This document shows positions 9,924 through 49,854 of a stretch of DNA of 64,000 nucleotides, in pieces. The stretch is from positions 2,420,501 to 2,484,500 of the forward strand of contig NC_013173.1 in assembly GCF_000023225.1 (NCBI RefSeq), in the 5' to 3' direction. How positions within the stretch are numbered: position 1 is the first letter of the stretch; each line of letters begins with the position of its first letter. The stretch comes from Desulfomicrobium baculatum DSM 4028. GTDB lineage: Bacteria; Desulfobacterota; Desulfovibrionia; Desulfovibrionales; Desulfomicrobiaceae. The notes beneath the pieces are model-generated. The model saw only the letters and a list, made by a program, of their open reading frames with translations. It did not search any database and was not told the origin of the DNA. Both the position numbers and the translations under genes were made by a program.

Positions 9924-9950
9924 ACGAGCTTCCCCGAACGCCCAGATAAA

Positions 9951-9984: not shown

Positions 9985-10025
9985 GTTTGGTAGAGTAGCA
10001 ATGAACACACATCAGGGAGTCAAAC

Positions 10026-10550
10026 ATGAAAAAAGCAAATCGAGCCCTCCTCGTCATCGACCTGCAAAACGACTACTTTCCCGATGGAAAATTCCCCCTG
10101 TGGAACACCGAAAGCACGCTGACCAACGTTCAGAATGCCATCAAAAAGGCCATCTCAAACGACATCCCGGTCATCCTCGTTCAGCACGTCGCAAGCGGCA
10201 AAGCAGGAGCCGCGCCCTTCTTCAATGCGGGAACTCCTGGAGTCGCCTTGCATCCCGGCATTCTTGAAGTCGCGCACGACGCGAAAATCGTCATCAAGAA
10301 ATTCGCGGACAGCTTTCTTGAGACCAATCTTGAAAATATACTTGCTGAGGAAAAGATCGAGGAAATACTCTTGTGCGGGATGATGACCCAGAACTGCGTT
10401 ACGCACACTGCGCTTTCAAAGTCGGCGGAAAAATACAAGATCTCCATCCTGGCGGACTGCTGCACCACGGTCAGCGAAATGATTCACAACATCGCCTTAA
10501 ACGGCCTGGCCCCGCGAGTGACGCTGACAACGTCCACGGACGCTCTTTAA
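10026..10550 (+). CDS. Isochorismatase-family cysteine hydrolase
   Basis: A 174-residue cytosolic alpha/beta hydrolase of the isochorismatase/nicotinamidase superfamily. The catalytic triad is apparent: Asp12 in VIDLQNDYF, Lys91 or Lys92 in IVIKKFADSF and Cys124 in GMMTQNCVTHTA with a preceding cis-peptide-type segment. Length matches small amidohydrolases of this family. It stands alone and convergent to a LysR gene, so the context gives no substrate. Confidence 0.87.
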   Translation: MKKANRALLVIDLQNDYFPDGKFPLWNTESTLTNVQNAIKKAISNDIPVILVQHVASGKAGAAPFFNAGTPGVALHPGILEVAHDAKIVIKKFADSFLETNLENILAEEKIEEILLCGMMTQNCVTHTALSKSAEKYKISILADCCTTVSEMIHNIALNGLAPRVTLTTSTDAL

Positions 10551-10598
10551 GCTGCTACGGGAGAGGGGGGATGCCAGATCTTCCCCCTTGGGCAGGCC

Positions 10599-13988: not shown

Positions 13989-14011
13989 AGACCAACGGAA
14001 GGCGCCTGCGA

Positions 14012-30761: not shown

Positions 30762-30880
30762 ATGACACGCCGCAAAGTATGTCTTTCTTGATACAACTCC
30801 AATGCGACGACTCCATTCAATAATCAAAATTCGCTACTAATCCAGATTATTATAACGACTACCTGAGATTGCATGCAAAG

Positions 30881-30896
30881 AGGATCACTTCTTGCT
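30881..30896 (+). promoter_or_regulatory. Sigma-54-type promoter of the aldehyde dehydrogenase
   Basis: AGGATCACTTCTTGCT has GG and GC separated by exactly ten bases and matches 8 of 11 positions of TGGCACG-N4-TTGCW. Expected transcription start near 30907, leaving an 80-base leader. Confidence 0.55.
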
Positions 30897-30986
30897 TTGA
30901 GACCTGCATGCGTATTCATCAAGAACTCCATTGATTTCAATCGACAAACACGAACATCAAAATTTCAAGCGGAGGTTTATAAAAAC

Positions 30987-32447
30987 ATGCGATTACAGGA
31001 CGCGTCACTCCTTTGTTCCAAGTGTCATATCGGCGGTGTATGGGTTGAGGCAGACGGCAACGGTTCATTCCCGGTCATAAACAAAACAACCGGCGACGTG
31101 ATCTGCACAGTCCCGAATTGCGGAAAATCCGAAACAGACCGTGCGATCGCCTCAGCAGCCGAAGCTTTCAAGACCTGGGGCGCAATGACCGGAAAAGAAC
31201 GCGGCCTTGTCCTGCACCGATGGCATGCTCTCATCCACGAAAACATTGACGACCTCGCCCTGATACTGACTCTGGAGCAGGGAAAGCCCCTTGCGGAATC
31301 CAGAGGGGAAATACTTCTGGGATGCACCTATATAGACTGGTTCGCAGAGGAGGGACGCCGGGCATACGGTGAAGTCATTCCTTCCCCGTGGAGCGGCAAG
31401 CAGCCCCTGGCCATACGCCAGCCGATCGGCGTGGCGGCGGCCATAACACCCTGGAATTTCCCGAACTCCATGATCACGCGAAAAGCCGCGCCAGCCTTGG
31501 CGGCCGGGTGCCCGGTCATCGTCAAACCCGCATCCGCGACCCCCTTGTCCGCGCTTGCGCTCGGGGTCCTGGCTGAGCGCGCAGGTTTTCCTGCGGGCGT
31601 ATTCTCCGTGATCACCGGCAACGCGCGCGAAATCGGAGACGCCTTGTGCCAGAGCCCAACAGTGCGCGCGCTCAGCTTTACCGGCTCCACTCCTGTCGGG
31701 AAGAAACTCATGGCCCAATGTGCGCAGACCATGAAAAAGCTGTCCCTTGAACTGGGCGGCAACGCGCCGTTTCTTGTTTTTGAAAAAGGGGATGTGGAGG
31801 ACGCCGTGCGCAGCGCAGTGGGCTGCAAATTTCGGAATGCCGGGCAAACCTGCATCTGCGCCAACCGTTTTCTGGTGGAGGACGCTGTGCACGATGAATT
31901 CGTGGAGCGCCTCAAGACGGAAGTCGGCAGGATCATCCTGGGAGACGGAACCAAGACCGGAGTAACCCAAGGCCCGCTCATCGACGGCAAGGCTTTCGCC
32001 TTCATGCACGAGTTGCTGCAGGACGCGACAAGCAAAGGAGCCACCATCGTGTGCGGCGGCAAGCCGTCGGCCCTGGGCGGGAACTTCTTCAAGCCCACCA
32101 TCGTCACCGACGTGACCAGGGACATGCGTCTCTTCCAGGAGGAAATCTTCGGCCCCATCGCCCCGATCATTCGCTTCTCCAGCGAAGAAGAGGCCATCGA
32201 ACTTGCAAACGACACGCCCTACGGACTGGCCAGCTATGTCTTCACCCGCGATCTGCCCCAGCTGTGGAGAGTCGTGACCAGGCTCGAATATGGACTGGTC
32301 GGCGCCAACGAGGTCGCCCTCGCCTCGGGCGAAGTCCCGTTTGGAGGCGTGAAGGATAGCGGACTTGGCCGGGAAGGCGGTCGGCAGGGATTGGATGAGT
32401 ACCTGGAAACCAAGTACATCCTGCTTGGAGGTCTGGACAAGCGCTAG
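30987..32447 (+). CDS. NAD(P)-dependent aldehyde dehydrogenase (GabD-like), candidate sulfolactaldehyde dehydrogenase
   Basis: A 486-residue aldehyde dehydrogenase of the succinate-semialdehyde type. Cys289 (NAGQTCICANRF) is the nucleophile and Glu255 (LELGGNAP) the general base; TPWNFP and KPASATP form the cofactor-binding region. GabD-like enzymes serve as sulfolactaldehyde dehydrogenases (SlaB) in known sulfoquinovose and dihydroxypropanesulfonate pathways. ATG 30987 is chosen for GGAGG upstream. Two palindromic sites and a sigma-54 promoter upstream match those ahead of the dehydrogenase-LarA operon and suyAB. That placement supports a sulfonate-aldehyde role; succinate semialdehyde is the alternative. 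Confidence 0.85.
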   Translation: MRLQDASLLCSKCHIGGVWVEADGNGSFPVINKTTGDVICTVPNCGKSETDRAIASAAEAFKTWGAMTGKERGLVLHRWHALIHENIDDLALILTLEQGKPLAESRGEILLGCTYIDWFAEEGRRAYGEVIPSPWSGKQPLAIRQPIGVAAAITPWNFPNSMITRKAAPALAAGCPVIVKPASATPLSALALGVLAERAGFPAGVFSVITGNAREIGDALCQSPTVRALSFTGSTPVGKKLMAQCAQTMKKLSLELGGNAPFLVFEKGDVEDAVRSAVGCKFRNAGQTCICANRFLVEDAVHDEFVERLKTEVGRIILGDGTKTGVTQGPLIDGKAFAFMHELLQDATSKGATIVCGGKPSALGGNFFKPTIVTDVTRDMRLFQEEIFGPIAPIIRFSSEEEAIELANDTPYGLASYVFTRDLPQLWRVVTRLEYGLVGANEVALASGEVPFGGVKDSGLGREGGRQGLDEYLETKYILLGGLDKR

Positions 32448-33961: not shown

Positions 33962-34113
33962 GGATTGTCTTGGAAGAATGTTCGGAGTCAAAAGAAATTT
34001 CTTCTTCCGATCCCGCGCGCTCTGTCAAGGCGGGAGTTGGGGCGGTTCATGGCGGCGTGCGTTCATGCGCCGTGAACGTGTGCGTGCGGGGCCTGAACCG
34101 GACGGCCGGCATG

Positions 34114-34163: not shown

Positions 34164-35060
34164 CTAAGCGGCTATGGCCTTCAGCCTTGCCATGAGGGCG
34201 GGGGCGAGCTTCGCGTCTCCCATGGGAAAGGGTCGCTTCAGGAATTGGTACTTGGGCTGCCCCATGCGGTGATAAGGCAGGAGTTCGTAGGTCAGCCGTT
34301 CGCGCTTGGGCAGATGCGCGACAATGGCCCTGATGTCTTCCTCGGTGTCGTTGAATCCGGGAATGACCGGAGTGCGCACCGTGATGGGCAGGTCAGGATA
34401 GGCGCGGAGCACGCTCTCAAAGTTTTCGAGGATGAGTTCGTTTCCGACGCCTGTGCCCTGCCTGTGCCGTGCCGAGGACATGGACTTGATGTCGAAGATG
34501 AGGCCGTCAAGGAGCCCGCAGGCTTCGAGCAGCGCCTCTGTGGAACAGTGGCCGCAAGTTTCCATGACGGTGTTGATCCGTCTGCGCCTGGCGTCGCGCA
34601 GCAGGGCCAGCGCGAATTCGGGCTGAAACATGGCTTCGCCGCCGCTCAGGGTCATGCCGCCGCCGGAACGGGCATAGAAGACGCCGTCCTGTTCAACCGC
34701 GTTCAGGACCGCGTCCACGGTCATGGCCTTGCCGTAGACGCTCAAAGCTCCCGTCGGACAGGCGTCGACGCAATCCGGCGCAGTCCCGCAGAGGGCGCAG
34801 TCGATGGCCGGCAGCCCTTCGATGTCCATGATGCGGGAGCTTGGACAACTGGTGATGCACCGCCCGCAGACGGCCGGGGTCAGGCATTTCGCCATATTGA
34901 AGGCCAGCTCGGGCCGCAGATGCTGGGATTCGGGATTACTGCACCAGTCGCAGCGCAGCGGGCAGCCTTTGAGGAAGACCATGGTGCGGATGCCTGCCCC
35001 GTCATGGACGGTGTATTTCTGGATGTTGAAGACGTATCCTTGCTGATTCATGTCACTCAT
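34164..35060 (-). CDS. islB: Glycyl-radical enzyme activase (radical SAM), IslB-type
   Basis: A 298-residue radical SAM protein that installs the glycyl radical on the neighbouring lyase. The CxxxCxxC cluster is Cys33, Cys37, Cys40 (GCPLRCDWCSNPES). Two further ferredoxin-like Cys sets follow (59, 65, 68, 72 and 88, 91, 97, 101), as in activases of the dehydratase/lyase class. SGGGMTLSGGE is the SAM-contact region. It lies 60 bases after the lyase gene on the same strand. The symbol assumes the lyase is IslA-like; if it is HpsG, the activase would be HpsH. Confidence 0.9.
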   Translation of the reverse strand: MSDMNQQGYVFNIQKYTVHDGAGIRTMVFLKGCPLRCDWCSNPESQHLRPELAFNMAKCLTPAVCGRCITSCPSSRIMDIEGLPAIDCALCGTAPDCVDACPTGALSVYGKAMTVDAVLNAVEQDGVFYARSGGGMTLSGGEAMFQPEFALALLRDARRRRINTVMETCGHCSTEALLEACGLLDGLIFDIKSMSSARHRQGTGVGNELILENFESVLRAYPDLPITVRTPVIPGFNDTEEDIRAIVAHLPKRERLTYELLPYHRMGQPKYQFLKRPFPMGDAKLAPALMARLKAIAA

Positions 35061-35120
35061 GTCTTTCTCGTCGTTGTCGAAAGGGTGCGAGGGGAGCGCG
35101 GCCCCCTCGCACGGATTGAT

Positions 35121-37592
35121 TCACATGTCGCCGTGTTCGGTACGTTCGATGATGTCGTTCTGGAGGTCGCGGGACAGGTCGCAGAAGTATGCGCTGTACC
35201 CGGCGATGCGGACCAGCAGCGAACGGTAGCTGTCCGGATCTTTCTGGGCGGCGAGCAGCGTTTCGCGATTCACGATGTTGAACTGCAGGTGCCACAGCTT
35301 CAGGTCGCACCAGGTGCGGATCATGTCCATGACCTTCCTGGTGCCCACGTCGCCCGCCACGCACTTGGGTGAGAGCTTTATGTTCAGCAGCCGGGACGCG
35401 CGGTTGGTCAGGCCGTAGTTTTTGGTATGGTAGTTGGACAGCATGACCGCGGTGGGACCGTTCCTGTCGGCGCCGTGGGACGCGGACGAGCCGTCGGACA
35501 GGGCGGTCCAGGCCAGGCGGCCGTTGGGCGTGGCGGACACGACCTTGCCGAAGGGCACATGCGAGGTGATGGGCACGTAGCGGACGTCGACGTGGATACC
35601 GCGTTCTTCGGAGCAGCGTCTGGCTTCGAGCTGGGTGAACCGGTCGATATCCTTGGCGATGCTGTCGGCGTATGGATCGTTGTTGCCGTAGCAGGGAGCG
35701 CCCTTGAGCATTTCCCGCACGGGCAGGTACCCTTCGAAGTTGGCCTTCAGGGCCGCGACGACTTCGGCCATGCTCAGCTTCTTGTCCTCGAAGACCAGCT
35801 TTTTGATGGCCGCCAGGGAATCGACGACGGTGCCGTAGCCCAGGAACTCAAAGTAGGAGTAGTCGACGCCGCCTTCGATCTTGTATTCGTGCAGGTCCTG
35901 CATATTTTCCATGCAGAGGTTGTGCATAAGAGATGAAAAAGGCGCGGCGAAGTGCATGGGCCTCAGGCGGTCGACGACGTATTGCTGCTGGAAGGCCTTG
36001 CGCAGCAGATTCAGATGCTGGGCCTTGTAAGCTTCATAGAATTCCTCCCAGGTCTGCATGGCGCAGGGATCGCCGGTCTCAAGGCCGATGACCTCGTCAC
36101 CGTAGTGCGGCATGCGGCCTTCGTGCATCAGCATCTCAAGCGCGGAAGCGAAATTGATGTAGACGCAGCCGGAGGTGTAGGTGTCGCGGTTGGGCATACG
36201 CGCCTCGGTGCAGCCGGAGACGGCGTAGTCCAAGGCTTCGCTCATGGGTGCGCCCTTGATGGCGTACAGCGGCACGACCTCCTCGTCGTTGATCAGCTTG
36301 GGAAAGCCGGAGCCATCCTTCACGGTCAGGGCCACCTCATGCAGAAACCGTTCGGGGGAGCGGCTATGGATGCGCGCCGCCAAGTCGGGATAGTTCAGGG
36401 GGAAGTCCCGCTTGGATTCGAGAAAGAGGTAGGAGAGGTCGTTGGTGGCGTCCTCGCCGTCCGGGGTCTGACCGCCGATGGTCACCGCCTCCCAGTGCGC
36501 GTATCCCTCCTGGAATTCATTACCCGTGGGGTTGATGTACAGGTCGATGAACTGGGCCATGTCGACCCACATGCATTCCAGCAGCTCGCGGGCCTCTTCG
36601 CGGGTGATGACCCCGTTTCTGATGTCGGCCTCGTAGTAGGGAAAGAGGTACTGGTCCATGCGGCCATTGGAGATGATGGCGCTGGCCTTCTGCTCGATGC
36701 GGGAAAACATCTGTACGAACCACTGGCACTGCATGGCTTCGCGAAAGCTGCGGGCGGGGTATGCGGGCACATGCTCGCAGGTCTCGGCGATCTGGAGCAG
36801 TTCCGCCTTGCGCCTCGGGTCCGTTTCCCCGGCGGCCAGATCTCTGGCCAGTTCGACGTGTCGCCTGGCCCAGATCATGACCGCGTCACAGACCAGAATC
36901 ATGGCTTCGAGGAAAGGCTTCTTGTCCCACATGTCGCGGGAATTGGTCGTATCGAGGGCGGCAAGCCTGGTCTTGGCCTCGTTCTGCATGTCCACAAGGC
37001 CGCGTTTCAGGACTTTCTCGTAGTCCGGAACCCACTGCAGGGCCGAGCGGTAGGAGGATGTCTCGCTGACCACGAATTTGGATTTGAGGCCGCGCTCGTC
37101 ATGGTAGGTCACGTTGCGGAGCTCGGCCGGCAGCACCTGATTCAGGTGTTCGTGGTAGGTCTTGCCCTCCCAATACGGTGCAATTTCCTCCACAAGGATC
37201 TTCATGTCGGAGTCCGAAATCAGAAACGGGCTCTTCGTGCGATTGGGCAGGTCCTTCATGACTTCGATGTAGAAGTCGCCGTCGATTTCCGGGTACAGGA
37301 TGCCGTACCGTCCAAGCTTGCCCACGCGACCGGCGAGGAGCTGGTCGGGAGTGATGTAAACGTTCATGTTTTCAGCGACATGCTTCAGGGCCTTGGCCCA
37401 GCGCAGGGTCAGCAGCTCGCCCTCGCTCTCCTGCATGGAGCGGGTAAAATACAGGGCGCGCTCAATGTCGACATGAGGTACCGCAAACTGGTTGCGTTCA
37501 AGGATCTTGTAGACCCGTTCACGACCGTTCCGGTTGATTTGAGTTGCTCCCGAGATGCGTTCTTCCTGGGGGGACTGGCAGCAGGTGGTCAT
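35121..37592 (-). CDS. islA: Glycyl-radical sulfite-lyase (isethionate or dihydroxypropanesulfonate type)
   Basis: An 823-residue glycyl-radical enzyme cleaving a C-S bond to release sulfite. Thiyl Cys461 and Glu463 lie in [16 protein letters not shown]; the radical glycine is Gly798 (RIAGYSAYF). From memory, Bilophila IslA has 830 residues with Arg189, Gln193, Trp374, Cys468, Glu470, Arg678 and Gly805; every counterpart here (Arg182, Gln186, Trp367, Cys461, Glu463, Arg671, Gly798) is shifted by exactly seven. The position of IslA Phe680 is Val673, so substrate size may differ. GGAG precedes ATG 37592, and a sigma-54-type promoter and palindrome lie upstream. Related HpsG cleaves dihydroxypropanesulfonate; sequence alone does not settle which. 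Confidence 0.88.
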
Positions 37593-38070: not shown

Positions 38071-38086
38071 TGGAACGCTCTTTGCT
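38071..38086 (+). promoter_or_regulatory. Sigma-54-type promoter of the dehydrogenase-LarA operon
   Basis: TGGAACGCTCTTTGCT matches 10 of 11 positions of TGGCACG-N4-TTGCW with correct spacing. Expected start near 38097, about 85 bases before the ATG at 38182. Confidence 0.75.
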
Positions 38087-38181: not shown

Positions 38182-39042
38182 ATGCAGATCGGATTCATCG
38201 GAGTAGGACTGATGGGAGGCCCACTGGCCCGCAACCTGATTCGCGCCGGCAAGAATGTGCTCGTTTTCGACCTCAGCGAAGAGGCCGTGAAGCGCACCCT
38301 CGCCGTCGGCACCACCGGCAAGGCTGCCGCCGCCGTGGCGGACCTGGCCTCCTGCGACATCGTCTTCACCAGCCTGCCCCTGCCGCAGCACATCAAGGGC
38401 GTCGTCCTCGGTGAAACAGGACTCTATGCCAAGATGCGCAAGGGCGCGCTGCACATTGAACTTTCCACCATTGATCCGGGTGCCGCCAACGAGATGCGGG
38501 CCGCTGCGGAAAAAGCGGGCCTGGGGTATCTGCAGTGCACCCTGGGCAAGACTCCGGCCCATGCGGAAAAGGCCGAAGAACCCATGTTCATCGGTGGCGA
38601 AAAGGCCCTGTATGCCGCCAATGAAGACCTGTTCAAGGTCATCGGCATCCCCAGCTATGTCGGAACCGTCGATGCGTCCTGCGCCGTCAAGCTCATCTCC
38701 AACATGATCGGCATGACCAACCTCGCCGTGCTCGCCGAAGGCATCAAGGTCGGCGACAAGGCCGGCCTGGATCGAACCCTGCTGCTCGAACTTTTGTCCG
38801 ACACCGGCGCCCGCAGCTTCCAGATGGACGTGCGCGGTCCGTGGATCGCGGCCGATGACTACAATCCTCGCTTCGGACTGGATCTGGCGCTCAAAGACGT
38901 GCGCCTTGGGCTGGAAATGGCCCGCGCCTGGGATCTTGATCTAAAAGCCATGGAAGCCGCCCTGGTCTACTACAAAAACGCCAGCGCCGAAGGCTACGGC
39001 AAGGAAGACTGCAACGCAGTCGCCAAGGTCGTCGGCAAATAA
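38182..39042 (+). CDS. Beta-hydroxyacid dehydrogenase, YihU-like (candidate sulfolactaldehyde/dihydroxypropanesulfonate oxidoreductase)
   Basis: A 286-residue NAD(P)-dependent 3-hydroxyisobutyrate-dehydrogenase-family enzyme. The Rossmann loop GFIGVGLMGGP, the substrate-loop Ser95 in ELSTIDP and the catalytic Lys170 (CAVKLISNM) are in place. At the substrate site it has GKTPAHA (122-128). E. coli YihU, the sulfolactaldehyde reductase, has GRTSANA there from memory, whereas most relatives have a PVSGG-type loop. Lys in place of Arg could bind a sulfonate. ATG 38182 is chosen for GGAGG. First gene of a long operon with the TRAP transporter, AOR, MoaD, LarA and ThiF genes. In the oxidising direction it would turn dihydroxypropanesulfonate into sulfolactaldehyde (inference). 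Confidence 0.82.
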   Translation: MQIGFIGVGLMGGPLARNLIRAGKNVLVFDLSEEAVKRTLAVGTTGKAAAAVADLASCDIVFTSLPLPQHIKGVVLGETGLYAKMRKGALHIELSTIDPGAANEMRAAAEKAGLGYLQCTLGKTPAHAEKAEEPMFIGGEKALYAANEDLFKVIGIPSYVGTVDASCAVKLISNMIGMTNLAVLAEGIKVGDKAGLDRTLLLELLSDTGARSFQMDVRGPWIAADDYNPRFGLDLALKDVRLGLEMARAWDLDLKAMEAALVYYKNASAEGYGKEDCNAVAKVVGK

Positions 39043-39218
39043 CCGTTTTTTCTCAAGTTCGAGGGTTTTCGCGATAACGCAGTGAGAAACGCCTTACCAT
39101 GAGTCCTGCGGGAAGCGGCAAAACCGCTTCCCATATCCTTCAGATACGGTGAATGCCCTGCATGGATGTCCTGTGCAGGCGGAGATATAACCCAGCCAGA
39201 GATCAAAGGAGAGACCGC

Positions 39219-40214
39219 ATGAGACGAGTTCTGTACGCCATCACGGCCCTAGTTTTTCTGTTCAGCGTGACGACGGCTTCCGCCGCCGAGTACAAGAAAA
39301 TGACCATCAGGGCTGCCACGGCCAACCCCGAAGGCAGCCTGCACACCACGGCGATCAACAAGTTCAAAGAGATCATCGAAAAAGAATCCGGAGGACAGAT
39401 CACCGTCCAGACCTTCTACGGCGGCTCCATGGGCGACGAACAGTCCAATGTCCGCCAGCTTCGCAGCCAGGAAATCCACTTGGCCGTCCTGGCCGTGGGC
39501 AACCTGACCCCCTTCGCCTCCCAGGCCAACATCTTTTACCTGCCCTACATGTTCCCCAAGATTGACTCGGCCTACCAGCTGCTGGGCCATGACGACTTCA
39601 CCGCCAAGGTCGCCGACAAGGTCGTCGAACAAAGCGGCACCCGGCCCCTGTCCTGGCTCATCGGCGGCTACCGTCACATCACCAACTCCAAGCACCCCAT
39701 CGCCAAGATCGACGACCTGCAGGGGCTGAAAATCCGCGTGCCCCCCGTGGCCGTGCAGCTCGAAGCCTTCAAGTCCTGGGGCGTAGAACCTCACCCCCTG
39801 GCCTGGTCCGAGACCTTCAATGCCCTGCAGCAGGGTGTCATCGACGGCCAGGAAAACCCGCACACCGTCAACCGCGACCAGAAGTTCTGGGAAGTCCAGA
39901 AGCACATCACCGAACTGCACTACATGCTCTGGGTAGGCCCCATGCTGGTCAGCGAAGCCTGGTACGCCAAGCTTGACGCCGACACCAAGGCCCTCGTGGA
40001 CAAGGCCGCCAAGGAAGCTGCGCAGCACGAATGGAAGTGGGCAGCAGAACAGGATGCCGTGGCCAAGCAACAGTGCATCGACAAGGGCATGGAAGTCACG
40101 GAACTGACCGACGAACCCGTATGGCAGGAAAAAGCCCGCACCGTATGGCCCCAGTTCGAGGAGCAGGTCGGCGGCAAGGCCATGATCGACGAAGCCGTCT
40201 CCCTTATGAACTAA
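39219..40214 (+). CDS. dctP: TRAP transporter substrate-binding protein (DctP family)
   Basis: A 331-residue periplasmic receptor with a signal peptide (residues 1-23, ending TTASAAE). The TRAP pattern is present: a long hinge helix and the IRVPPVAVQLEAFKSWGVEP and WSETFNALQQGVIDGQENP segments near residues 165-210. The Arg in IRVPP normally grips an acidic group of the ligand, here plausibly a sulfonate or carboxylate. GGAGA precedes ATG 39219. Cotranscribed with dctQ and dctM. TRAP systems carry isethionate and dihydroxypropanesulfonate in related organisms. Confidence 0.92.
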   Translation: MRRVLYAITALVFLFSVTTASAAEYKKMTIRAATANPEGSLHTTAINKFKEIIEKESGGQITVQTFYGGSMGDEQSNVRQLRSQEIHLAVLAVGNLTPFASQANIFYLPYMFPKIDSAYQLLGHDDFTAKVADKVVEQSGTRPLSWLIGGYRHITNSKHPIAKIDDLQGLKIRVPPVAVQLEAFKSWGVEPHPLAWSETFNALQQGVIDGQENPHTVNRDQKFWEVQKHITELHYMLWVGPMLVSEAWYAKLDADTKALVDKAAKEAAQHEWKWAAEQDAVAKQQCIDKGMEVTELTDEPVWQEKARTVWPQFEEQVGGKAMIDEAVSLMN

Positions 40215-40240
40215 ACAAACACTGAAGGAGGCAGGCAATC

Positions 40241-40771
40241 ATGTCGACTCAGACGACGTCAATCATTCGCAAGCTGTACGATAATTTCGAGGAAATCCTG
40301 AGCGTCGTGTGCGTCGGGGTCATGGTCGCCTGCCTCATGCTTCAGGTCGGAGCGCGCTGGATCGGTGGGCAAGGCTTACCCTGGACGGAGGAGCTCAGCC
40401 GCTTCGCCTTTCTGTGGGCCGTATTTTCCGCGGCGGCCCTCGTAGCCAAGCACGGGTCCCATGTCCGCATCACCGCCCAGTATCTGCTCATGCCGCCGAA
40501 ATACCGGCTGGGCTTCCGGATGTTCACCGACACCATCTGGATAATCTTCAACATCTACATAGCCTGGATAAGCTGGCAGGTGGTCAGCAGCGGGCTGGAA
40601 TTCCCGGAGCTTTCGCCCACCCTGAATATCGTCAGAGGCTATATAGAAATGATCATCCCGTTCGGCTTCGTGCTCATGAGCTGGCGAATCGTGGAAGGCT
40701 ACGTCATCAGGTTCAGAAACGGAACCCTCATCGAACTTGTGCAAGAAGAATTTGAAAAGGGGGACAAATAA
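40241..40771 (+). CDS. dctQ: TRAP transporter small membrane subunit (DctQ family)
   Basis: A 176-residue membrane protein with four hydrophobic segments and the ISWQVVSSGLEFPELSPTL region typical of DctQ. It stabilises the large subunit. It starts 27 bases after the binding-protein gene and its stop shares a base with the start of the next gene. Confidence 0.9.
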   Translation: MSTQTTSIIRKLYDNFEEILSVVCVGVMVACLMLQVGARWIGGQGLPWTEELSRFAFLWAVFSAAALVAKHGSHVRITAQYLLMPPKYRLGFRMFTDTIWIIFNIYIAWISWQVVSSGLEFPELSPTLNIVRGYIEMIIPFGFVLMSWRIVEGYVIRFRNGTLIELVQEEFEKGDK

Positions 40772-42075
40772 TGGAACTCTCCGTCTTGCAAATGGTCCTT
40801 ATCACCCTGGGCGTATTCTTCCTGCTGGGGATGCCGGTCTTCATGAGCCTGGCCATCTCGGCCGTCGTGGCCCTGACCTTTGGCGGTTATCTCCCCATGT
40901 CCGTCATCCACAACTCGATTTTCGACGGGCTGAACATCTTTCCACTCCTGGCCATCCCCTGCTTCGTCATCGCCGGCACCCTCATGGAGTACGGCAACAT
41001 CACGAACCAGATCGTTGAAGTGGTCAAGCAGATGGTCGGCCGCATGCACGGGGGCCTTGGAATCACCACCATCCTGGCCTGCACCTTCTTCGCGGCCATC
41101 TCGGGCTCGGGCCCGGGCACCGTTGCCGCGGTGGGAACCATCCTGATCCCGGCCATGATCCGCAGCGGTTACAGCAAGGATTACGCGGCGTCCGTGGCCT
41201 CATCCGGCGGCACAATCGGTCTGCTCATCCCGCCCAGCAACCCCATGATCATCTATTCCATCCTCGGCAACGTGTCGGTCACGGCCATGTTCACCGCCGG
41301 TTTCATCCCCGGCTTCATGGTCGGTCTGGTCATGTGCCTCACGGCCTGGTCCGTGGCGAGGAGGAAAGGATTCCGCGGCGACGAGAATACCCCGCCGTTC
41401 AACCTGGTCACTTTTCTGAAAACCCTCTGGAAAAGCTTTTTCTCGCTGCTGACCCCCTTCGTCATCCTGGGCTCCATCTATTCAGGGCTATGCACCCCCG
41501 TCGAAGCGGCCGTCCTGGCTATCGCCTACGCCATGTTCGTCGGCATAGTCATCAATCGCGCCCTGCGGCCCGTTCATATTTACAAGGCCTTGCTGGAAGG
41601 CGCCCTGCTCTGCGGAGCCGTGCTGCTCATCGTCGGCACCTCGACCCTGTTCGGCAAGATCCTGACCTTCGAGGAAGCCCCCCAGCGCTTGGCCGCAGCC
41701 GTCATGAGCATCTCCCAGGACCCCAAGATCGTCCTGCTGCTCATCATCGGCGTGCTGATCATCCTCGGCATGTTCATGGAGACCCTGTCCACCATCATCA
41801 TCCTGGTACCGGTCCTCATGCCCATGCTGCACGTGGTCGGCATCGATCCCATCCACTTCGGCATCATCCTGGTGGTGACCAACGAAATGGCCCTGCTCAC
41901 GCCGCCTCTGGGGGTCAACCTGTTCGTGGCGTCGCGATTGGCGAACATCTCGGTGGAGCGCATCTCTATCGGCGTGCTGCCCTTCCTTGCCGCGCTTCTG
42001 GTCTGCATCCTGATCCTGACATTCTTCCCCGAAATATCCACCTGGCTGCCGTACACGCTGGGCATGGGACAATAA
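40771..42075 (+). CDS. dctM: TRAP transporter large permease (DctM family)
   Basis: A 434-residue protein with about twelve hydrophobic helices. The GSGPGTVAAVGTILIPAMIRSGYSKDYAASVASSGGTIGLLIPPSNP stretch is split over the DctM signature region, and the GMFMETLSTIIILVPVLMP region is also typical. It should bring the ligand in with sodium. Single-base overlap with dctQ shows coupling. The three genes together form one complete TRAP importer inside the sigma-54 operon. Confidence 0.92.
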   Translation: MELSVLQMVLITLGVFFLLGMPVFMSLAISAVVALTFGGYLPMSVIHNSIFDGLNIFPLLAIPCFVIAGTLMEYGNITNQIVEVVKQMVGRMHGGLGITTILACTFFAAISGSGPGTVAAVGTILIPAMIRSGYSKDYAASVASSGGTIGLLIPPSNPMIIYSILGNVSVTAMFTAGFIPGFMVGLVMCLTAWSVARRKGFRGDENTPPFNLVTFLKTLWKSFFSLLTPFVILGSIYSGLCTPVEAAVLAIAYAMFVGIVINRALRPVHIYKALLEGALLCGAVLLIVGTSTLFGKILTFEEAPQRLAAAVMSISQDPKIVLLLIIGVLIILGMFMETLSTIIILVPVLMPMLHVVGIDPIHFGIILVVTNEMALLTPPLGVNLFVASRLANISVERISIGVLPFLAALLVCILILTFFPEISTWLPYTLGMGQ

Positions 42076-42144: not shown

Positions 42145-44004
42145 ATGCCGTATGGTTATAACGGAAAAATCCTGGTGGTTGACCTGACTGCGGGCACGTG
42201 GTCCGTGGATGAACACGATGAAACATGGTACCGCACCTACTGGGGCGGCGGTGCCCTGGCCAGCTGGTACATGCACAAATTCATCCCGACGAAGACCGAT
42301 CCCCTCGGTCCGGAAAACGTTCTCATTTTCGCGGCCTCGGTGCTCTGCGGCTGCGGCATGTCGGGTTTCAACCGCTACACGGTGGCGGCCATGAGTCCCC
42401 TGACAGGGGGCTTTGGCGAATCCGAAGCGGCCGGATATTTCGGCCCGGAGATGAAGCACGCCGGCTTTGACGCCGTTGTCTTCAAGGGCAAATCGTCCAA
42501 ACCCGTTTATCTGTGGATCAACAAGGGGCAGGTCGAACTGCGCCCCGCCGGTCAGCTTTGGGGCATGGAAAACGCGCCGTTCCTGGACGCCGTCCGCGAG
42601 GAACTGGGCGACAAGAAGATCCGCATCGCCTCCATCGGGCCCGCCGGCGAGAAGATGAGCCGCCTGGCCTGCATCATCAACGAACTGGCCCACGCCAACG
42701 GCCGCAGCGGCATGGGCGCGGTCATGGGCTCCAAGAATTTGAAAGCCGTCATCGTGCGCGGAGAGGAAGGCGGCATCGAACTCGCCAACCCCGAGGCCTT
42801 CAAGGAACTCAATCTGTTCCACCGCAAGCGCATCGGCGAACACATGCCAAACGTCGGCATGCGCAAGTTCGGCACGGTCCAGCACATGATGGCCCAGCAG
42901 AACTCCGGCATCCTGCCGACCCGCAACTGGAAGGACTGCCAGTTCGAAGACGCGGCCAAGCTCGGCTGGGAAGGCTACGAAAAAGTCTTCGACGGCAACC
43001 ACACCTGTTACAAATGCACCGTGGCCTGCAAGCGCAAGGTCAACAACATCGCCGAAAAGCGCTACGGCGGACCCGAGTACGAAACCCTGGCCGCCCTTGG
43101 TTCCATGTGCGGCGTGGGCGATCTGGACGCGGTTTGCCGGGGTCACGAGCTCTGCAACGCCATGGGCCTTGATACCGTAGGGGCCGGAGCCGCCGTGGCC
43201 TTTGCCATGGAACTGGCCCAAAAGGGCATCCTCGACGCCAAGGACATGGGCGGACGGCTGATCACCTTCGGTGACGGCGCGGGCATGCTCGAACTGCTGG
43301 GCAAAATCGCTCGCCGTGAAGGACTTGGCGACATCCTCGCCGATGGTGTCAAACGTGCGGCCGAGCGCATCGGCAAGGGCTCCGAGGAATACGCATTCCA
43401 CGTCAAGGGACAGGAACCGGCCTTTCATGATCCGCGCGGCAAGACCGGCGTGGGCCTTGGTTTTGCCCTGTCCCCCACGGGCGCGGACCATATCGAGGCC
43501 CCGCATGAGGTCCCCTTCCAGGGTGAAGGCGTGAAACTCGTCAACCCGCTCGGCATCATCGTGGCCCCCAAGGCTCTGGACAACGGCCTGGGCAAAGTGC
43601 GCTACTTCATCGCGGGTGAAAAGACCTGGGCCATGAACAACACGCTCGGCATCTGCAATTTCGTGGTCGCGCCCCTCTTCGCGCTGAGTTACGCCAAGCT
43701 GTGCGAAGTCGTCGAAGCGGTGACGGGCTGGTCAACCAGCCTGCACGAACTCATGCTCGTCGCGGAGCGCTCCATGGTCCTCGCACGCATGTTCAACATA
43801 CGGGAAGGCATGGACAGCAAGGACGACACACTGTTCCGCCGCATGTTCGAGCCTCTGCCGGAAGGCCCCCTCAAAGGCACGACCATTGATCCGACGGAAT
43901 TCAAGAACATGCTGGGCATGTATTATGCCATGATGAACTGGACTGAAAAAGGCATCCCGCGTGAAGGGGCTCTCTACAACCTGAGCCTCGATTGGCTGAA
44001 TTAG
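42145..44004 (+). CDS. aor: Tungsten aldehyde:ferredoxin oxidoreductase (AOR family)
   Basis: A 619-residue cytosolic enzyme oxidising aldehydes to acids with ferredoxin as acceptor. Cluster ligands are Cys288, Cys291, Cys295 (CYKCTVACK) and Cys504 (LGICNF). Pyrococcus AOR uses 288, 291, 295 and 494. Glu313 in GPEYETLAALG and His449 in GADHIEAP match the catalytic pair. The NRYTVAAMSPLTGGFGES loop binds tungstopterin. GGAGA precedes ATG 42145. It is in the operon with its own MoaD-like and ThiF-like cofactor genes. Likely substrates by context are acetaldehyde (from isethionate) or sulfolactaldehyde. Confidence 0.92.
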   Translation: MPYGYNGKILVVDLTAGTWSVDEHDETWYRTYWGGGALASWYMHKFIPTKTDPLGPENVLIFAASVLCGCGMSGFNRYTVAAMSPLTGGFGESEAAGYFGPEMKHAGFDAVVFKGKSSKPVYLWINKGQVELRPAGQLWGMENAPFLDAVREELGDKKIRIASIGPAGEKMSRLACIINELAHANGRSGMGAVMGSKNLKAVIVRGEEGGIELANPEAFKELNLFHRKRIGEHMPNVGMRKFGTVQHMMAQQNSGILPTRNWKDCQFEDAAKLGWEGYEKVFDGNHTCYKCTVACKRKVNNIAEKRYGGPEYETLAALGSMCGVGDLDAVCRGHELCNAMGLDTVGAGAAVAFAMELAQKGILDAKDMGGRLITFGDGAGMLELLGKIARREGLGDILADGVKRAAERIGKGSEEYAFHVKGQEPAFHDPRGKTGVGLGFALSPTGADHIEAPHEVPFQGEGVKLVNPLGIIVAPKALDNGLGKVRYFIAGEKTWAMNNTLGICNFVVAPLFALSYAKLCEVVEAVTGWSTSLHELMLVAERSMVLARMFNIREGMDSKDDTLFRRMFEPLPEGPLKGTTIDPTEFKNMLGMYYAMMNWTEKGIPREGALYNLSLDWLN

Positions 44005-44012
44005 CCGCACAG

Positions 44013-44252
44013 ATGGACGAACGCATGCGCATCAGCCTGACCCTGGAGGCCATCCTCGCCAAATACGCGCCGGAAAACCCGGAGGCATACGAAATTCCCG
44101 GCCCCCTGACGGTGGAGGAACTCATCCTCCACCTGGGCATTCCCGAGGATCTCGTCATGTTTGTCATCGTCAACGGACAGATGGCGCCCCTGAAGACACG
44201 GCTGCAGGACAATGCGTCCGTATCCCTGTGTCCTTACATATGCGGAGGCTAG
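44013..44252 (+). CDS. MoaD/ThiS-like ubiquitin-fold sulfur carrier
   Basis: A 79-residue beta-grasp protein ending in the GG required for activation (YICGG). An upstream TTG frame exists, but ATG 44013 gives the usual length; the gene starts just after the AOR stop. MoaD-like proteins beside AOR genes are thought to supply sulfur to the pterin cofactor. The ThiF-like E1 gene two positions downstream would adenylate it. The ribosome site of the next gene, GGAGG, lies in its last codons. Confidence 0.82.
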   Translation: MDERMRISLTLEAILAKYAPENPEAYEIPGPLTVEELILHLGIPEDLVMFVIVNGQMAPLKTRLQDNASVSLCPYICGG

Positions 44253-44256
44253 CATC

Positions 44257-45522
44257 ATGAACATCACGCTTAAATACGGGTCCCAGTACAGGGATCTCGA
44301 ACTGCCGGACGACTCGGACGTCACGATAATGAAACCGCGGGATCTTCCGGTCCTCGACGATCTTGGCCTCGCCCTCGATGATGCCCTGGATCATCCCATC
44401 GGCACGCCGCCGCTGGAAGGCAGACCCAGACCGCAAAGCGTCGCCATCGCCGTACCCGACGAGACCAGACCGGCGCCCCTGAAGGCCCTTCTGCCCGTCC
44501 TGCTGGACCGCTTGTTCCGCATCTGGCCGGACCTTGATCCGGCCGGGGTGCGCATCGTCGTCGGCGGCGGCCTGCACCCGGCGCCCGACCAGGCCCAGCT
44601 GGCGCGCATCCTGCCCGAAGACCTGCGCGGCTGCACCGTGGTGTCCCACGACGCCCTGGCCTCGCCCATGACCAGCTTCGGCGTCACCAGCCGCGGCACG
44701 CCCGTGGAGATCAACGCCGCCTACGGCGAGGCGGAGCTCAAACTCGTCATCGGCATGATCGATCCCCACCAGTTCCAGGGCATGACCGGCGGGGCCAAGG
44801 GCGTGGCCATCGGCTGCGCCTCCGCAGCCTTGATCCAGCACAACCACAGCCTCATGTCGAGCCCCGAAGCCCGGGTCGGCAACATCCTCGATAACCCTAC
44901 CCGCCTGGACATCAACGAAGCCGGACAGATGATCGGCATCGACCTGGCCATCAACGTCAGCCTCAACCCGGCCAAGCAGGCCGTCGCCCTTCTGGCCGGC
45001 GAGCCCGTGGCGGTCCTGAAGGCCGGGGCGGCCTTCTCCGAAAAGGTCTATGGGCTCCCCCTGGAAAAACCCTTCGACATCGTCATCGCCTCCTGCGGCG
45101 GCGACCCCAAGGACATCTGCCTCTATCAGGCCCAGAAAGGCCTCAACCTGGCCTCCCAGTGCGCCGCCGAAGGCGGGAAGATCCTGCTCCTGGCCGCCTG
45201 TACCCAGGGCGTGGGCGATGACCACTACCTAAACTATGTACGGCAGTTCGCCAGCCCCGAAGAACAGATGCGGGAATTCGAGGAGCGGGGCTTTCGCATG
45301 GGCGCGCACAAGGCCTTCCTGTTCAGCAGGACACTGACGCGCTTCACGGTGGTGGTGGACTCGAAGATGGACACCAAGGAACTGGCCGAATGCCATCTGA
45401 AGAAGGGCGATGCCCAGCAGACCCTGGACCGTTGGCTCGGAGACGTTCCGCCCGGTCCGAAACCACGCATCGCAGTGATCCCCAACGCCAACACGACCTA
45501 TTTCTACAGGACCGCGCCATGA
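44257..45522 (+). CDS. LarA-family nickel-pincer-dependent 2-hydroxyacid racemase
   Basis: A 421-residue protein of the LarA superfamily, which uses a nickel-pincer nucleotide to racemise or epimerise 2-hydroxyacids. The active-site set is intact: DETRP (68-72), His107 (GGGLHP), His171 (IDPHQF), Lys181 (GGAKGVAIG, cofactor-tethering lysine), His197 (HNHSLM) and Tyr290, Gln291, Lys294 (YQAQK). Each is one to four positions from Lactiplantibacillus LarA (His108, His174, Lys184, His200, Tyr294, Gln295, Lys298). ATG 44257 has GGAGG upstream. LarB, LarC and LarE, which make the cofactor, are not in the window. Lactate is unlikely in this context; sulfolactate is proposed (see findings). Confidence 0.88.
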   Translation: MNITLKYGSQYRDLELPDDSDVTIMKPRDLPVLDDLGLALDDALDHPIGTPPLEGRPRPQSVAIAVPDETRPAPLKALLPVLLDRLFRIWPDLDPAGVRIVVGGGLHPAPDQAQLARILPEDLRGCTVVSHDALASPMTSFGVTSRGTPVEINAAYGEAELKLVIGMIDPHQFQGMTGGAKGVAIGCASAALIQHNHSLMSSPEARVGNILDNPTRLDINEAGQMIGIDLAINVSLNPAKQAVALLAGEPVAVLKAGAAFSEKVYGLPLEKPFDIVIASCGGDPKDICLYQAQKGLNLASQCAAEGGKILLLAACTQGVGDDHYLNYVRQFASPEEQMREFEERGFRMGAHKAFLFSRTLTRFTVVVDSKMDTKELAECHLKKGDAQQTLDRWLGDVPPGPKPRIAVIPNANTTYFYRTAP

Positions 45523-46322
45523 GCGGCAACGACGCGCTCATCCCGCTCCCGGATCACATCTACCTTGACAGGGCGGCCCAATCGGGCCGCAGCGTCCAGC
45601 AGGAAGTCGCCGCAGGCATCGAAAGCGGCGAGATGCCCATCCGCTACCAGCGCAACGCCGAGACCATCCGTCCCATGGAACAGGCCACTCTGGCGCGCTC
45701 CCGGATTCTCCTCGTTGGCTGTGGAGGACTTGGCGGACATGTGCTGGAATTTCTGGTCCGGGCCGGAGTGGGCACCATCCTGGCCTGCGACCCGGACCGG
45801 TTCGACCTCACCAACGCCAACCGGCAGGTGCTGGCAACCTCGGACAACTTGGGCCGGACAAAGGTCGAGGTCGCGGTTGAACGCGCCGAGCGGATAAATC
45901 CCCTGGTCAGAGTGGTGCCCCTGGCCACGGATTTCCGGAAAGAAGAATCCCCGGCCGCCGACCTCGTCGTCGATTGCCTCGGCGGGGCGGAGTGCCGGAG
46001 GGATTTGCAGCGTTTGGCCACGGAAGCGAAAGTGCCGCTCGTTTCGGCCGGAATTTCGGGCTGGACGGCCCTCGTTAGCACGACATGGCCCGGCGAGACG
46101 GGACTGGCGGAATTCATGAACGAAAAACAGGCGGGCAGCGAACTCGTTCAGGGCGTTCCGAGCCCGGTGGCCGGTTTCGCGGCTTCGCTGCAGGCCACGG
46201 AAGTGCTGCGAATTCTGACCGGCCACATTCCGGCCCTGCGCGGCAGCCTGCTGTTGGCCGACCTGTCCGAAATGCGCTTCTCCTCCATCAGCCTGCAGAC
46301 AGGCCTGGATTTCTCGATCTGA
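45519..46322 (+). CDS. ThiF/MoeB/HesA-like E1 adenylating enzyme
   Basis: A 267-residue E1-type enzyme. RYQRNAETIRPMEQATL, the ATP-binding VGCGGLGGHVLEFLVRAG, DPDRFDLTNANRQVLATSDNLGRTK and the final DLVVDCLGG all match ThiF/MoeB. These adenylate the C-terminal glycine of MoaD/ThiS partners. The gene overlaps larA by four bases, the last gene of the operon, and presumably activates the MoaD-like protein for AOR tungstopterin assembly. Confidence 0.88.
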   Translation: MSGNDALIPLPDHIYLDRAAQSGRSVQQEVAAGIESGEMPIRYQRNAETIRPMEQATLARSRILLVGCGGLGGHVLEFLVRAGVGTILACDPDRFDLTNANRQVLATSDNLGRTKVEVAVERAERINPLVRVVPLATDFRKEESPAADLVVDCLGGAECRRDLQRLATEAKVPLVSAGISGWTALVSTTWPGETGLAEFMNEKQAGSELVQGVPSPVAGFAASLQATEVLRILTGHIPALRGSLLLADLSEMRFSSISLQTGLDFSI

Positions 46323-46370: not shown

Positions 46371-47960
46371 TCACCGCGCCCCGTTTTTCGAAGCCGAAGC
46401 ATCTATCCCCAGCTTGAGCATGCGCCTCTGCAGCGTCGAACGCGACAGGCCGAGCATCTTCGCCGCGCCCTTGGGCCCGGAAATGACGCCGCCGGAGCGG
46501 AACAGGGCCTCTTTGATATGCTGCCGCTCCACCTCCTCAAGACTGCAGCTCGAAGGGGGCATCGGCGGTGCCGGAAGGGACTCAGGCGACGCCTGCGGAT
46601 AAGCCAGCGCATCCGTACGCAGCGCATCCTGGACATCCTGGCGACTCAGCTTTCCGGAAAGCCCATGCTTTATGAGCAGGGTGCTGATGACATTTCGCAA
46701 TTCGCGGGCATTGCCCGGCCAGCAGTGCGTCTGGAGTTGGTGCAGCAGATCCTGGGATAGCTGGATTTGCGGCAGGGAGTACTGCGAACAGAGCTGGCTG
46801 ACAAAATAGCTCGACAATGCGGGGATGTCTTCAATCCTGTCGCGCAGGGGCGGAATCTCCAGCGTGCAGGACGACAGTCTGTAGTAAAAGTCGCTGCGCA
46901 CCTTCCCCTGCGTGACGGCCTCGCGCATCTTGACGTTGGTCGCGGCGATAATCCGGGCATCGACGGAAAAAGACACGCTTTCCCCGACCCGCTCGAAACA
47001 GCTGTCATCGAGGACATGCAGCAGCTTGCTCTGCATTTCCTGATTGAGTTCGGCGATCTCATCCAGAAACAGCGTCCCCTGGTGGGCCAGCTCGAACCGG
47101 CCGACGCGTTTCGTCGCCGCCCCGGTGAACGCCCCCTTGGCATGGCCGAAGAGTTCGCTCTCAAAAAGCGTCGAGGCCATGGCCGGACAGTTGACCTTCA
47201 CGAACTGCTTCTCGCGGCGCTGGCTGCGGCAATGTATGTAATGGGCCAGCCGCGACTTGCCGGTTCCCGTCTCTCCGAGGATAAGCACGGGAATATCCAG
47301 CACCGCCACGGCGTGTACCCTGGCCATGAAGCGACGCATGGACTGGCTTTCGAAAAAGAACGTCTCGCTCTCACCCGTCTCGCCGGTGTACGGAACCTGA
47401 TTCAGGCTGGCGCCCTGTTCAAGGTGCTCCATGGCCAGAAGCGCCCCCAGGCCCGCGGCCACATAGGGGGAAAGCTCCAGCAAGAACTCCATGATCTCGT
47501 AGAGGTTCTCCGGTTTCTTCCGGAAGGAGCAGTGCAGGGTGCCGATGATCTTGTCGTTGAGGATGAGCGGAAAAGCCATGGTCGTGGTCAGACCCGCCTC
47601 GGCCATGGGATGGAGCATGGATTCCACGAAATGCTGCGAAACGTCGGTGATGACGACAGGCTTGCGCGACTCGATGACATGCCCGGCGACGGTGGTCTTC
47701 TCGGCCTTGCGAATCGGGGAAAGGGAATTGATGACCGCTCCCTCCGCAGCGGTGAAGTAGCTCAGCAGCTCGCTGTTGGGATCGTAGAGGTTGATGCAAA
47801 GACGGTCAAAACTGAATTGCTGGCGGAAAAGCCGAGACAGGTTCTGCAGAAACAGGTTGCGCGAAGAGACCTTGCCCAGGGACGAGACAAGCTCGCGGCC
47901 CATGGCCTGCGCACCGATCATGCGCGACGAGTGCGTCCTCATATTTGTTGCCGAATCCAT
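46371..47960 (-). CDS. GAF-domain sigma-54 activator (FhlA/NorR-like)
   Basis: A 529-residue enhancer-binding protein with an N-terminal GAF sensor (about 25-180), AAA+ domain (about 205-430; GETGTGKS, canonical GAFTGA in [23 protein letters not shown]) and Fis-type C terminus ([27 protein letters not shown]). It converges on the thiF gene and diverges from suyA. The palindrome TGCCC-N6-GGGCA (48008-48023) lies just upstream of its start and the same element precedes the other promoters of the regulon. It is the best candidate regulator of the suyAB and dehydrogenase-LarA promoters. Confidence 0.9.
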
Positions 47961-48125: not shown

Positions 48126-48141
48126 TGGAATGCTCCTTGCT
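48126..48141 (+). promoter_or_regulatory. Sigma-54-type promoter upstream of suyAB
   Basis: TGGAATGCTCCTTGCT matches 9 of 11 positions of TGGCACG-N4-TTGCW with correct spacing. The start would be near 48153, giving a leader of about 250 bases, unusually long for a sigma-54 unit. Confidence 0.6.
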
Positions 48142-48405: not shown

Positions 48406-48690
48406 ATGGCTATCGATTTTTTGGTACACGAAGCCGCGGATGGCGTTGGGGTAGTGGTTGTTGAGGGCTTGAAAGCCAATCAGGAAATCACTGGCTGGGT
48501 CATGAAAGAAGACCAGACCATCAAAATCAAGATCATCAGCGACATCCCGATCGGACACAAGCTGGCCCTCAAAGATTTTGCCGCCGGAGATACAGTTTTC
48601 AAATACAATACCGACATCGGAAAGGTCGTGGCCCCCATCAAGAAAGGCGAACACTTGCACGTCCACAACGTCAAAACCAAGAGGTGGTAA
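48406..48690 (+). CDS. suyA: Sulfolactate sulfite-lyase small subunit (SuyA)
   Basis: A 94-residue protein of the altronate-dehydratase N-terminal SAF-domain type. It starts MAIDFLVHEAADGVGVVVVEG and ends HVHNVKTKRW, matching SuyA. With SuyB it cleaves (2R)-sulfolactate to pyruvate and sulfite. GGAGG precedes the ATG. The next gene starts after a three-base gap, and the pairing of a separate 94-residue subunit with SuyB is typical of sulfolactate lyase rather than of fused altronate dehydratase. Confidence 0.85.
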   Translation: MAIDFLVHEAADGVGVVVVEGLKANQEITGWVMKEDQTIKIKIISDIPIGHKLALKDFAAGDTVFKYNTDIGKVVAPIKKGEHLHVHNVKTKRW

Positions 48691-48693
48691 CTC

Positions 48694-49854
48694 ATGCAGA
48701 CTAAATTTTTCGGATACCGTCGTGAAAATGGCCGTGTGGGCATTCGTAACCATGTTGTCATCCTGCCCCTGGACGACCTGTCCAACGCCGCTTGCGAAGC
48801 GGTGGCGAACAACGTTCAGGGCACCATGGCCCTGCCGCACGCCTATGGCCGCCTGCAGTTCGGTGACGACCTGGACCTGTATTTCCGCACCTTGATCGGC
48901 ACGGGCTGCAACCCGAACGTCGCCGCCGTCATCGTCATCGGCATCGAGCCGCAGTGGACCAATCGCATCGTCGAAGGCATCGCCAAGACCGGCAAGCCGG
49001 TTGTCGGTTTCGCCATCGAGCAGAACGGCCAGTACAACACCATCTGCTCCGCCTCCCGCAAGGCCCAGGAATTTGTGCAGATGGCCACCGAATACCAGCG
49101 CACCGAGTGTGACGTAAGCGAACTGTGGGTCTCCACCAAGTGCGGCGAATCCGACACCACCTCCGGCATCGCCACCAACCCCACCGTCGGCAACGCCTAC
49201 GACAAGCTGTATGAAAAGGGCTCGACCCTGCTCTTCGGCGAAACCACGGAACTGACCGGCGGCGAGCACCTGGTGCTCGAACGTTGCGTCAACGACGAAG
49301 TGCGCAAGGATTTCCAGTTCTATTTCGACCGCTATGCCAAGGTTGTCGACGACCACAAGACCAGCGACCTGTCCGACTCCCAGCCGACCAAGGGCAACAT
49401 CGAGGGCGGACTGACCACTATCGAGGAAAAGGCCCTCGGCAACATCCAGAAGATCGGCCGCAAGGCCCCCGTTGTCGGTTGCCTGGAAAAGGCCGTCGCC
49501 CCCACCGGCCCCGGCCTGTGGTTCCAGGATTCCTCCTCGGCCGCCGCTGAACAGGTCACCTTGTGCGCCGCTTCCGGCTTCGTGGTTCATCTGTTCCCCA
49601 CCGGCCAGGGCAACATCATCGGCAACCCGATCCTGCCCGTCATCAAGCTGTGCTCCAATCCCCGCACCCTGCGGACCATGTCGGAGCACTTTGACGTGAA
49701 CGTTTCCGGCCTGCTGCGCCGCGAAATCAACATGGATCAGGCCGGCGACATGCTGCTCGAAATGATGATCCGCACGTGCAATGGCCGCATGACCGCCGCC
49801 GAAGTGCTCAATCATCGTGAATTCATCATCACCCGTCTGTACGAAAGCGCATAA
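48694..49854 (+). CDS. suyB: Sulfolactate sulfite-lyase large subunit (SuyB)
   Basis: A 386-residue Fe-S lyase of the UxaA large-domain family. The signature [20 protein letters not shown] (about residues 146-165) is the SuyB form of the altronate-dehydratase KCGGSD motif; conserved cysteines here and in GTGCNPNV and VVGCLEKA may bind the cluster. SuyAB releases sulfite from (R)-sulfolactate. Codon overlap with suyA is absent but the gap is three bases. The TTT transporter genes follow on the same strand. The assignment rests on motif and context; altronate dehydratase is the alternative. Confidence 0.87.

Follow-up and report, generated by a model that had tools for sequence, protein, structure and literature searches.

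Gene content of the locus

The window analysed here is a 64,000-nucleotide stretch of the genome of Desulfomicrobium baculatum DSM 4028, a single contig of 3,942,657 bases (PMC3035215) from a species previously listed as a suyB carrier (PMC6278857). It holds an operon with the gene order dhpA-TRAP-AOR-thiS-larA-thiF, which suyAB adjoins. On the 5' side of the operon lie an SSADH-type aldehyde dehydrogenase gene and the HpsG-HpsH genes for (2S)-DHPS; on the 3' side a divergent sigma-54 activator gene is followed by suyA, suyB and a tripartite tricarboxylate transporter (TTT). The features are as follows:

30873..32447, + strand: SSADH-type aldehyde dehydrogenase, SlaB candidate
34164..35060, − strand: HpsH, activating enzyme of the DHPS glycyl-radical enzyme (NF048010, 440.8 bits; cut-off 430)
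35121..37592, − strand: HpsG, (2S)-DHPS glycyl-radical enzyme (NF048011, 1486 bits; cut-off 1000)
38071..38086, + strand: -24/-12-like site TGGAACGCTCTTTGCT upstream of dhpA, suggestive only
38182..39042, + strand: dhpA-like NAD-dependent dehydrogenase of the YihU/3-hydroxyisobutyrate dehydrogenase family, predicted to convert DHPS to sulfolactaldehyde (SLA)
39153..42075, + strand: TRAP transporter, three genes (DctP, DctQ, DctM)
42145..44004, + strand: aldehyde ferredoxin oxidoreductase (AOR), 619 aa, a candidate for SLA oxidation
43992..44252, + strand: ThiS/MoaD-like protein, 86 aa (ThiS, 32.5 bits)
44257..45522, + strand: larA, LarAH5-clade nickel-pincer nucleotide (NPN) racemase, 421 aa, candidate sulfolactate racemase
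45519..46322, + strand: ThiF/MoeB-like adenylyltransferase, its start overlapping the larA stop (ATGA)
46371..47960, − strand: sigma-54-dependent activator, divergent from suyAB (assigned by sequence reading and by its resemblance to another sigma-54 activator, which Pfam identifies at 32570-33991)
48126..48141, + strand: -24/-12-like site TGGAATGCTCCTTGCT upstream of suyA, suggestive only
48406..48690, + strand: suyA, small subunit of (R)-sulfolactate sulfo-lyase (from its position before suyB and the conserved pair)
48694..49854, + strand: suyB, large subunit of (R)-sulfolactate sulfo-lyase, UxaA family, 386 aa
50166..53200, + strand: TTT genes TctC, TctA and TctB (TctB by position)

The first-pass annotation had placed larA in an operon with a YihU-like dehydrogenase, a transporter and an AOR, and domain searches agree; the ThiS-like and ThiF-like genes were absent from its description. 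From the AOR gene through thiF, the genes overlap or almost touch. The dhpA reading frame opens at 38065, the probable gene start being 38182. Much of this neighbourhood recurs elsewhere: dhpA homologues adjoin larA/suyAB in the loci of other genomes, an 87% homologue of the SlaB candidate adjoins dhpA-AOR-larA in a Desulfomicrobium locus (L100), and homologues of the activator encoded at 46371..47960 adjoin suyAB/larA in most related loci. The suyA and suyB genes are adjacent (48406-49854), and the suyA product has no NCBIfam match. The TTT transporter is a possible sulfolactate importer, a role proposed for a TTT system in T. muris (PMC10507020).

The gene set resembles that of the DhpA-SlaB-SuyAB pathway of Desulfovibrio sp. 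DF1, a sulfite-reducing relative, in its DhpA-type dehydrogenase with adjacent AOR, its SSADH-type SLA dehydrogenase and SuyAB. The two differ in that the DF1 study neither addresses sulfolactate inversion nor names a racemase (PMC6278857). The AOR homologue of DF1 was inactive on SLA when produced in E. coli (PMC6278857). In the window (42145-46322, + strand), larA sits between the ThiS/MoaD-like and ThiF/MoeB-like genes that come after the AOR gene; the ThiS/MoaD-like protein probably serves pterin-cofactor maturation for the AOR, and the DF1 enzyme made in E. coli may have been without such maturation partners. HpsG and HpsH (34164-37592, − strand) adjoin the DhpA-SlaB-LarA-SuyAB genes, so that D. 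baculatum appears to encode two parallel anaerobic (S)-DHPS routes. HpsG is named a dehydratase in NCBIfam and a sulfolyase in the sulfonate literature.

It had also been claimed that one type of predicted site precedes both the larA operon and suyAB. Both -24/-12-like sites do exist, with 14 of 16 bases identical, which makes co-regulation of the dhpA operon and suyAB plausible from sequence. However, scanning the window for the sigma-54 consensus returned 11 sites against 9.6 expected, no excess over chance, and the two sites are therefore only suggestive.

The LarA protein and its cofactor genes

The larA reading frame (44257-45522, + strand) gives a 421-residue translation with no internal stops. 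A longer version starting at 44212 was rejected because homologues begin at 44257. The product matches Lar_N (142 bits) and LarA_C (54 bits) in Pfam, and its best curated NCBIfam model is NF052595, 'nickel-dependent malate racemase, LarAH5 family', where it scores 582 bits and the equivalog cut-off is 462 bits. With LarA numbered as in PMC7583248, the NPN ligands R75, K184 and H200 correspond to R71, K181 and H197 here, and the catalytic set D72, H108, H174 and K298 to D68, H107, H171 and K294. All seven residues are present and invariant in an alignment of 28 homologues, confirming the earlier description of a LarA homologue with a full complement of cofactor and catalytic residues. The AlphaFold model (pLDDT 94.4) gave 19 significant Foldseek matches, all of them LarA-family entries. 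The nearest solved structure by both sequence and predicted fold is Mar2 (Foldseek E 5e-42, 32% identity), the LarAH6 malate racemase of Thermoanaerobacterium thermosaccharolyticum (PDB 6d6z/7s91), which shares with the D. baculatum protein the catalytic set, Q293 and an H-K pair. On every feature testable in sequence, then, the larA product is a member of the LarA/NPN-dependent racemase superfamily.

A functional enzyme of this type would be served by the cofactor genes larB, larC and larE, and all three, which the first-pass annotation had proposed to look for elsewhere in the genome, are present, each above its cut-off: LarB at 243-245 bits, LarC at 404 bits (Pfam) and LarE at 155-156 bits. 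LarE passes narrowly (cut-off 150), and its RCYACK and ACLLTRLPYG stretches can be read from the sequence. These genes also occur in relatives that have no LarAH5 protein. In one genome that has no LarAH5 protein (G256, locus L039, about 13625-14266), larB lies less than 3 kb from suyB.

What the enzyme acts on is a separate matter. Its H351-K352 is the counterpart of an H/Q-K pair in malate racemases, whose likely role there is to hold the second acid group (PMC11770544). Because true malate racemases have the H-K pair too, residues alone cannot separate malate from sulfolactate. Taken at face value, the NCBIfam name would make the protein a malate racemase that passes D-malate to central metabolism, its adjacency to suyAB reflecting nothing beyond shared regulation. 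The equivalog match and the H-K signature fit such a role, as do the malate activity measured for Mar1 and LarAH62 and the pyruvate carboxylase gene downstream. However, the family name rests on Mar1 of Desulfitobacterium hafniense, which racemises L-malate with a Km of 55 mM, as against 0.38 mM for Mar2, and whose authors doubted that malate is native and suggested that the native substrate may be another (PMC7583248). Furthermore, the annotated operon genes include neither a malic enzyme nor a D-malate gene.

Inversion of sulfolactate in D. baculatum

The original reason for considering sulfolactate was stereochemical: SuyAB was said to be (R)-specific, while SLA oxidation gives (S)-sulfolactate. 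The literature agrees on both points, the specificity of SuyAB for (R)-sulfolactate (PMC11131964; PMC12890257) and the formation of (S)-sulfolactate by SLA dehydrogenase (PMC11382572). The known means of inversion is the enzyme pair SlcC and ComC (PMC10507020; PMC12421959), and another known solution is HpsN, which acts on (R)-DHPS (PMC11382572). That SlcC and ComC are not visible had been noted for the window only; family searches extend this to the complete genome. ComC (Ldh_2, PF02615) has no match in the complete D. baculatum genome, and the best match there to the SlcC family (2-Hacid_dh_C, PF02826) scores 38 bits, which we read as a distant relationship and not as a true 2-hydroxyacid dehydrogenase. 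HpsN is likewise absent from the complete genome. With SlcC, ComC and HpsN all missing genome-wide, (S)-sulfolactate is left without any other known way to SuyAB.

Racemisation would be unnecessary, and the role of LarA unrelated, if DHPS were converted directly to (R)-sulfolactate by the HpsN route. One genome (G014) has HpsN beside suyAB and also carries larA. In D. baculatum, the only Histidinol_dh-family gene (PF00815) carries the HisD-type motif GGETPL and not the GRY(A/S)H motif of HpsN (GRYAH), and the cluster instead has DhpA- and SlaB-type genes together with the (2S)-DHPS enzyme HpsG. We regard this route as highly improbable here.

Strict mutual exclusion between larA and SlcC/ComC would have been expected, but was not found among the larA+suyAB loci examined. 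SlcC-like genes are present in none of these loci; ComC-like Ldh_2 genes lie near larA and suyAB in about ten loci from other genomes. These genes and the HpsN of G014 indicate that other routes sometimes exist beside larA. One suyAB locus without larA carries a gene of the enolase superfamily (MR/MLE), and several such loci carry RraA-like aldolase genes (L036, 5449-6594; L037, 7554-8225; L038 and L040 likewise); they might represent further stereochemical solutions, or other steps.

Linkage of larA and suyAB across genomes

Of 395 genomes sampled evenly across the phylum Desulfobacterota, nine encode a LarAH5 protein (eight above cut-off, one partial) and 18 encode SuyB. SuyB is found in six of the nine LarAH5 genomes, compared with 12 of the 386 others (Fisher p = 2.8e-7; p = 2.8e-5 when counted by genus), and in no genome of this sample matched only by other LarA subfamilies. 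In all six genomes having both, the genes lie 0.1-11 kb from each other within a single cluster. When 84,980 species genomes were scanned with a LarAH5 alignment, 80 loci emerged, picked by LarA similarity alone. Among distinct loci with LarA at least 50% identical, suyAB lies in the flanks of 28 and is lacking from those of two; the flanks of eight are too short to judge, three of these belong to genomes that encode a SuyB of 77-89% identity. The first-pass annotation had asked whether this clade co-occurs with suyAB or is widespread without it; the answer is tight linkage. SuyB of 57-65% identity also adjoins nine more divergent members, which come from Chloroflexota and Verrucomicrobiota. 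Within Desulfitobacteriaceae, suyAB is adjacent at each of the ten complete LarAH5 loci, as opposed to none of four LarA paralogues below the cut-off.

Altogether, 48 distinct linked loci come from four phyla (Desulfobacterota, Bacillota, Chloroflexota and Verrucomicrobiota), a count that excludes one divergent LarA (L047, see below). The two genes are on the same strand in every case and usually no more than 0.5 kb apart, with larA upstream in 20 loci and downstream in 28, as in L103, where the run is aldehyde dehydrogenase, suyA, suyB, larA. The occurrence of both gene orders means that the association has survived rearrangement or been rebuilt through it. In a 120-row tree made with a quick method, the linked enzymes, again except L047, fall into one 93-row clade with starred support, which excludes Mar2 and the unlinked paralogues. 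Mar2 further differs from the D. baculatum enzyme in having Y-K rather than Q-F after the catalytic histidine. The persistence of linkage over four phyla and two gene orders, and the position of Mar2 outside the linked clade, argue against malate as the substrate, and we consider the malate racemase reading improbable.

Family and residues, operon, cofactor genes, absent alternatives and conserved linkage together provide independent genomic evidence that strongly supports the earlier interpretation of the protein as a sulfolactate racemase, here broadened to the LarAH5 clade; each of its refuting conditions that sequence could address came out in its favour. We predict that the larA product very likely interconverts (S)- and (R)-3-sulfolactate in a single NPN-dependent step. 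Its mechanism, borrowed from the family, would be a proton-coupled hydride transfer: one of H107 and H171 would remove the 2-OH proton while C4 of the cofactor accepts the 2-hydrogen as hydride, leaving 3-sulfopyruvate in the bound state, and return of the hydride to the other face would produce the opposite enantiomer, with H351-K352 holding the sulfonate. In D. baculatum, catabolism of DHPS or sulfosugars would deliver (S)-sulfolactate through DhpA and SlaB/AOR, and LarA would join this supply to SuyAB, which cleaves only the (R) form to pyruvate and sulfite. The net conversion of (S)- to (R)-sulfolactate ahead of SuyAB would be the same as that by SlcC/ComC in Chromohalobacter and Taurinivorans. 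That detour, which LarA would replace, differs in using two NAD(P)-dependent proteins and free sulfopyruvate, and both protein families are missing from the D. baculatum genome.

The same reasoning may apply to Mar1. It belongs to the curated family of the D. baculatum protein and likewise has the full set of NPN and catalytic residues and the H-K acid-binding pair, and members from its bacterial family, Desulfitobacteriaceae, adjoin suyAB just as larA does in D. baculatum; it differs in having been named from its activity on malate. Sulfolactate reportedly serves D. hafniense DCB-2 as an electron acceptor (PMC12890257), and suyB is present in a D. hafniense strain (PMC6278857). Since sulfolactate use by DCB-2 coincides with family-wide larA-suyAB linkage, Mar1 is by analogy probably a sulfolactate racemase itself, the linkage being read from its bacterial family. 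Neither PMC7583248 nor PMC11770544 mentions sulfolactate. On balance, we think it somewhat more likely than not that the whole suyAB-linked LarAH5 clade, spanning at least four phyla and including Mar1, consists of one-step nickel sulfolactate racemases, the first LarA enzymes for sulfonates, with Chloroflexota also pairing the racemase with a second UxaA-type lyase, perhaps for another beta-substituted 2-hydroxy acid.

The breakdown of sulfoquinovose yields sulfolactate and DHPS as major products, from which anaerobes form H2S in guts and sediments. The published anaerobic pathways combine an (S)-producing upper part with an (R)-specific lyase and leave the inversion unnamed except where SlcC and ComC exist. 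The candidate enzyme, found in dozens of other anaerobes beside sulfolactate-splitting genes, very probably turns (S)- into (R)-sulfolactate in one step. If so, a nickel racemase closes the inversion gap, sulfonate respiration in such organisms depends on nickel and the NPN cofactor, sulfonates join the substrates of LarA, and a curated family name now being spread by automatic annotation is corrected. The claim that no such enzyme had been described holds for the searchable literature, where we found neither a sulfolactate racemase nor sulfolactate together with lactate racemase, and where recent sulfolactate papers name no nickel sulfolactate racemase; as this literature covers few subscription journals, priority is not guaranteed. 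The clade as such, however, already bore the name 'malate racemase (LarAH5)', taken from one weakly active enzyme.

The substrate range might also be broader, with sulfolactate only one of several physiological substrates beside malate or a related 2-hydroxy acid that carries a beta leaving group. Promiscuity is seen among LarA homologues (PMC11770544), and many Chloroflexota members of the clade are next to a second SuyAB-like pair with no more than 36-39% identity to SuyB, so that the substrate may differ there. Yet the linked partner in Desulfobacterota and Desulfitobacteriaceae is in every case SuyB, at 57-91% identity, and we judge a multi-substrate role quite improbable for the D. baculatum enzyme. 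Loci with the SuyAB-like pair of about 37% identity come from Chloroflexota and one Peptococcaceae (L104, L106, L108, L112-L114, L117, L120, L126-L128, L130 and L144).

The motif at the catalytic histidine was tried as a discriminator between linked and unlinked enzymes and dropped. It reads HQF in 47 of 47 linked clade members, but in ten unlinked ones as well, and is thus compatible with linkage without being diagnostic; none of the 8 clade members that have HHF and usable flanks is linked. Some members stand apart from suyAB. In one genome (G167; L033/L082), larA lies beside a TTT transporter, and no SuyB was found in the genome, a case that counts against the sulfolactate reading; in another (G047), it lies at a contig end beside the usual regulator, again with no SuyB found in the genome. 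One of the two loci at least 50% identical that lack suyAB in their flanks comes from a Desulfobacterales MAG (L093, 29-11918), whose SuyB (67% identity) is encoded elsewhere in the genome. Its larA is located inside an apparent sulfoquinovose operon with genes for an SftI-like isomerase (295 bits, below its 700-bit cut-off), GH31, an aldose epimerase, a class II aldolase, an FGGY kinase and a TRAP transporter; these different surroundings point to the same intermediate.

The LarA of L047 (G013, 7111-10641) was rejected as a clade member because of its long branch and a best model, LarAH6, that scores 199 bits, below cut-off. This very divergent protein is encoded directly 5' of suyAB and downstream of a transaldolase/FSA-like gene of the kind seen in sulfo-TAL pathways, and possibly represents a second, independent recruitment of LarA to sulfolactate.
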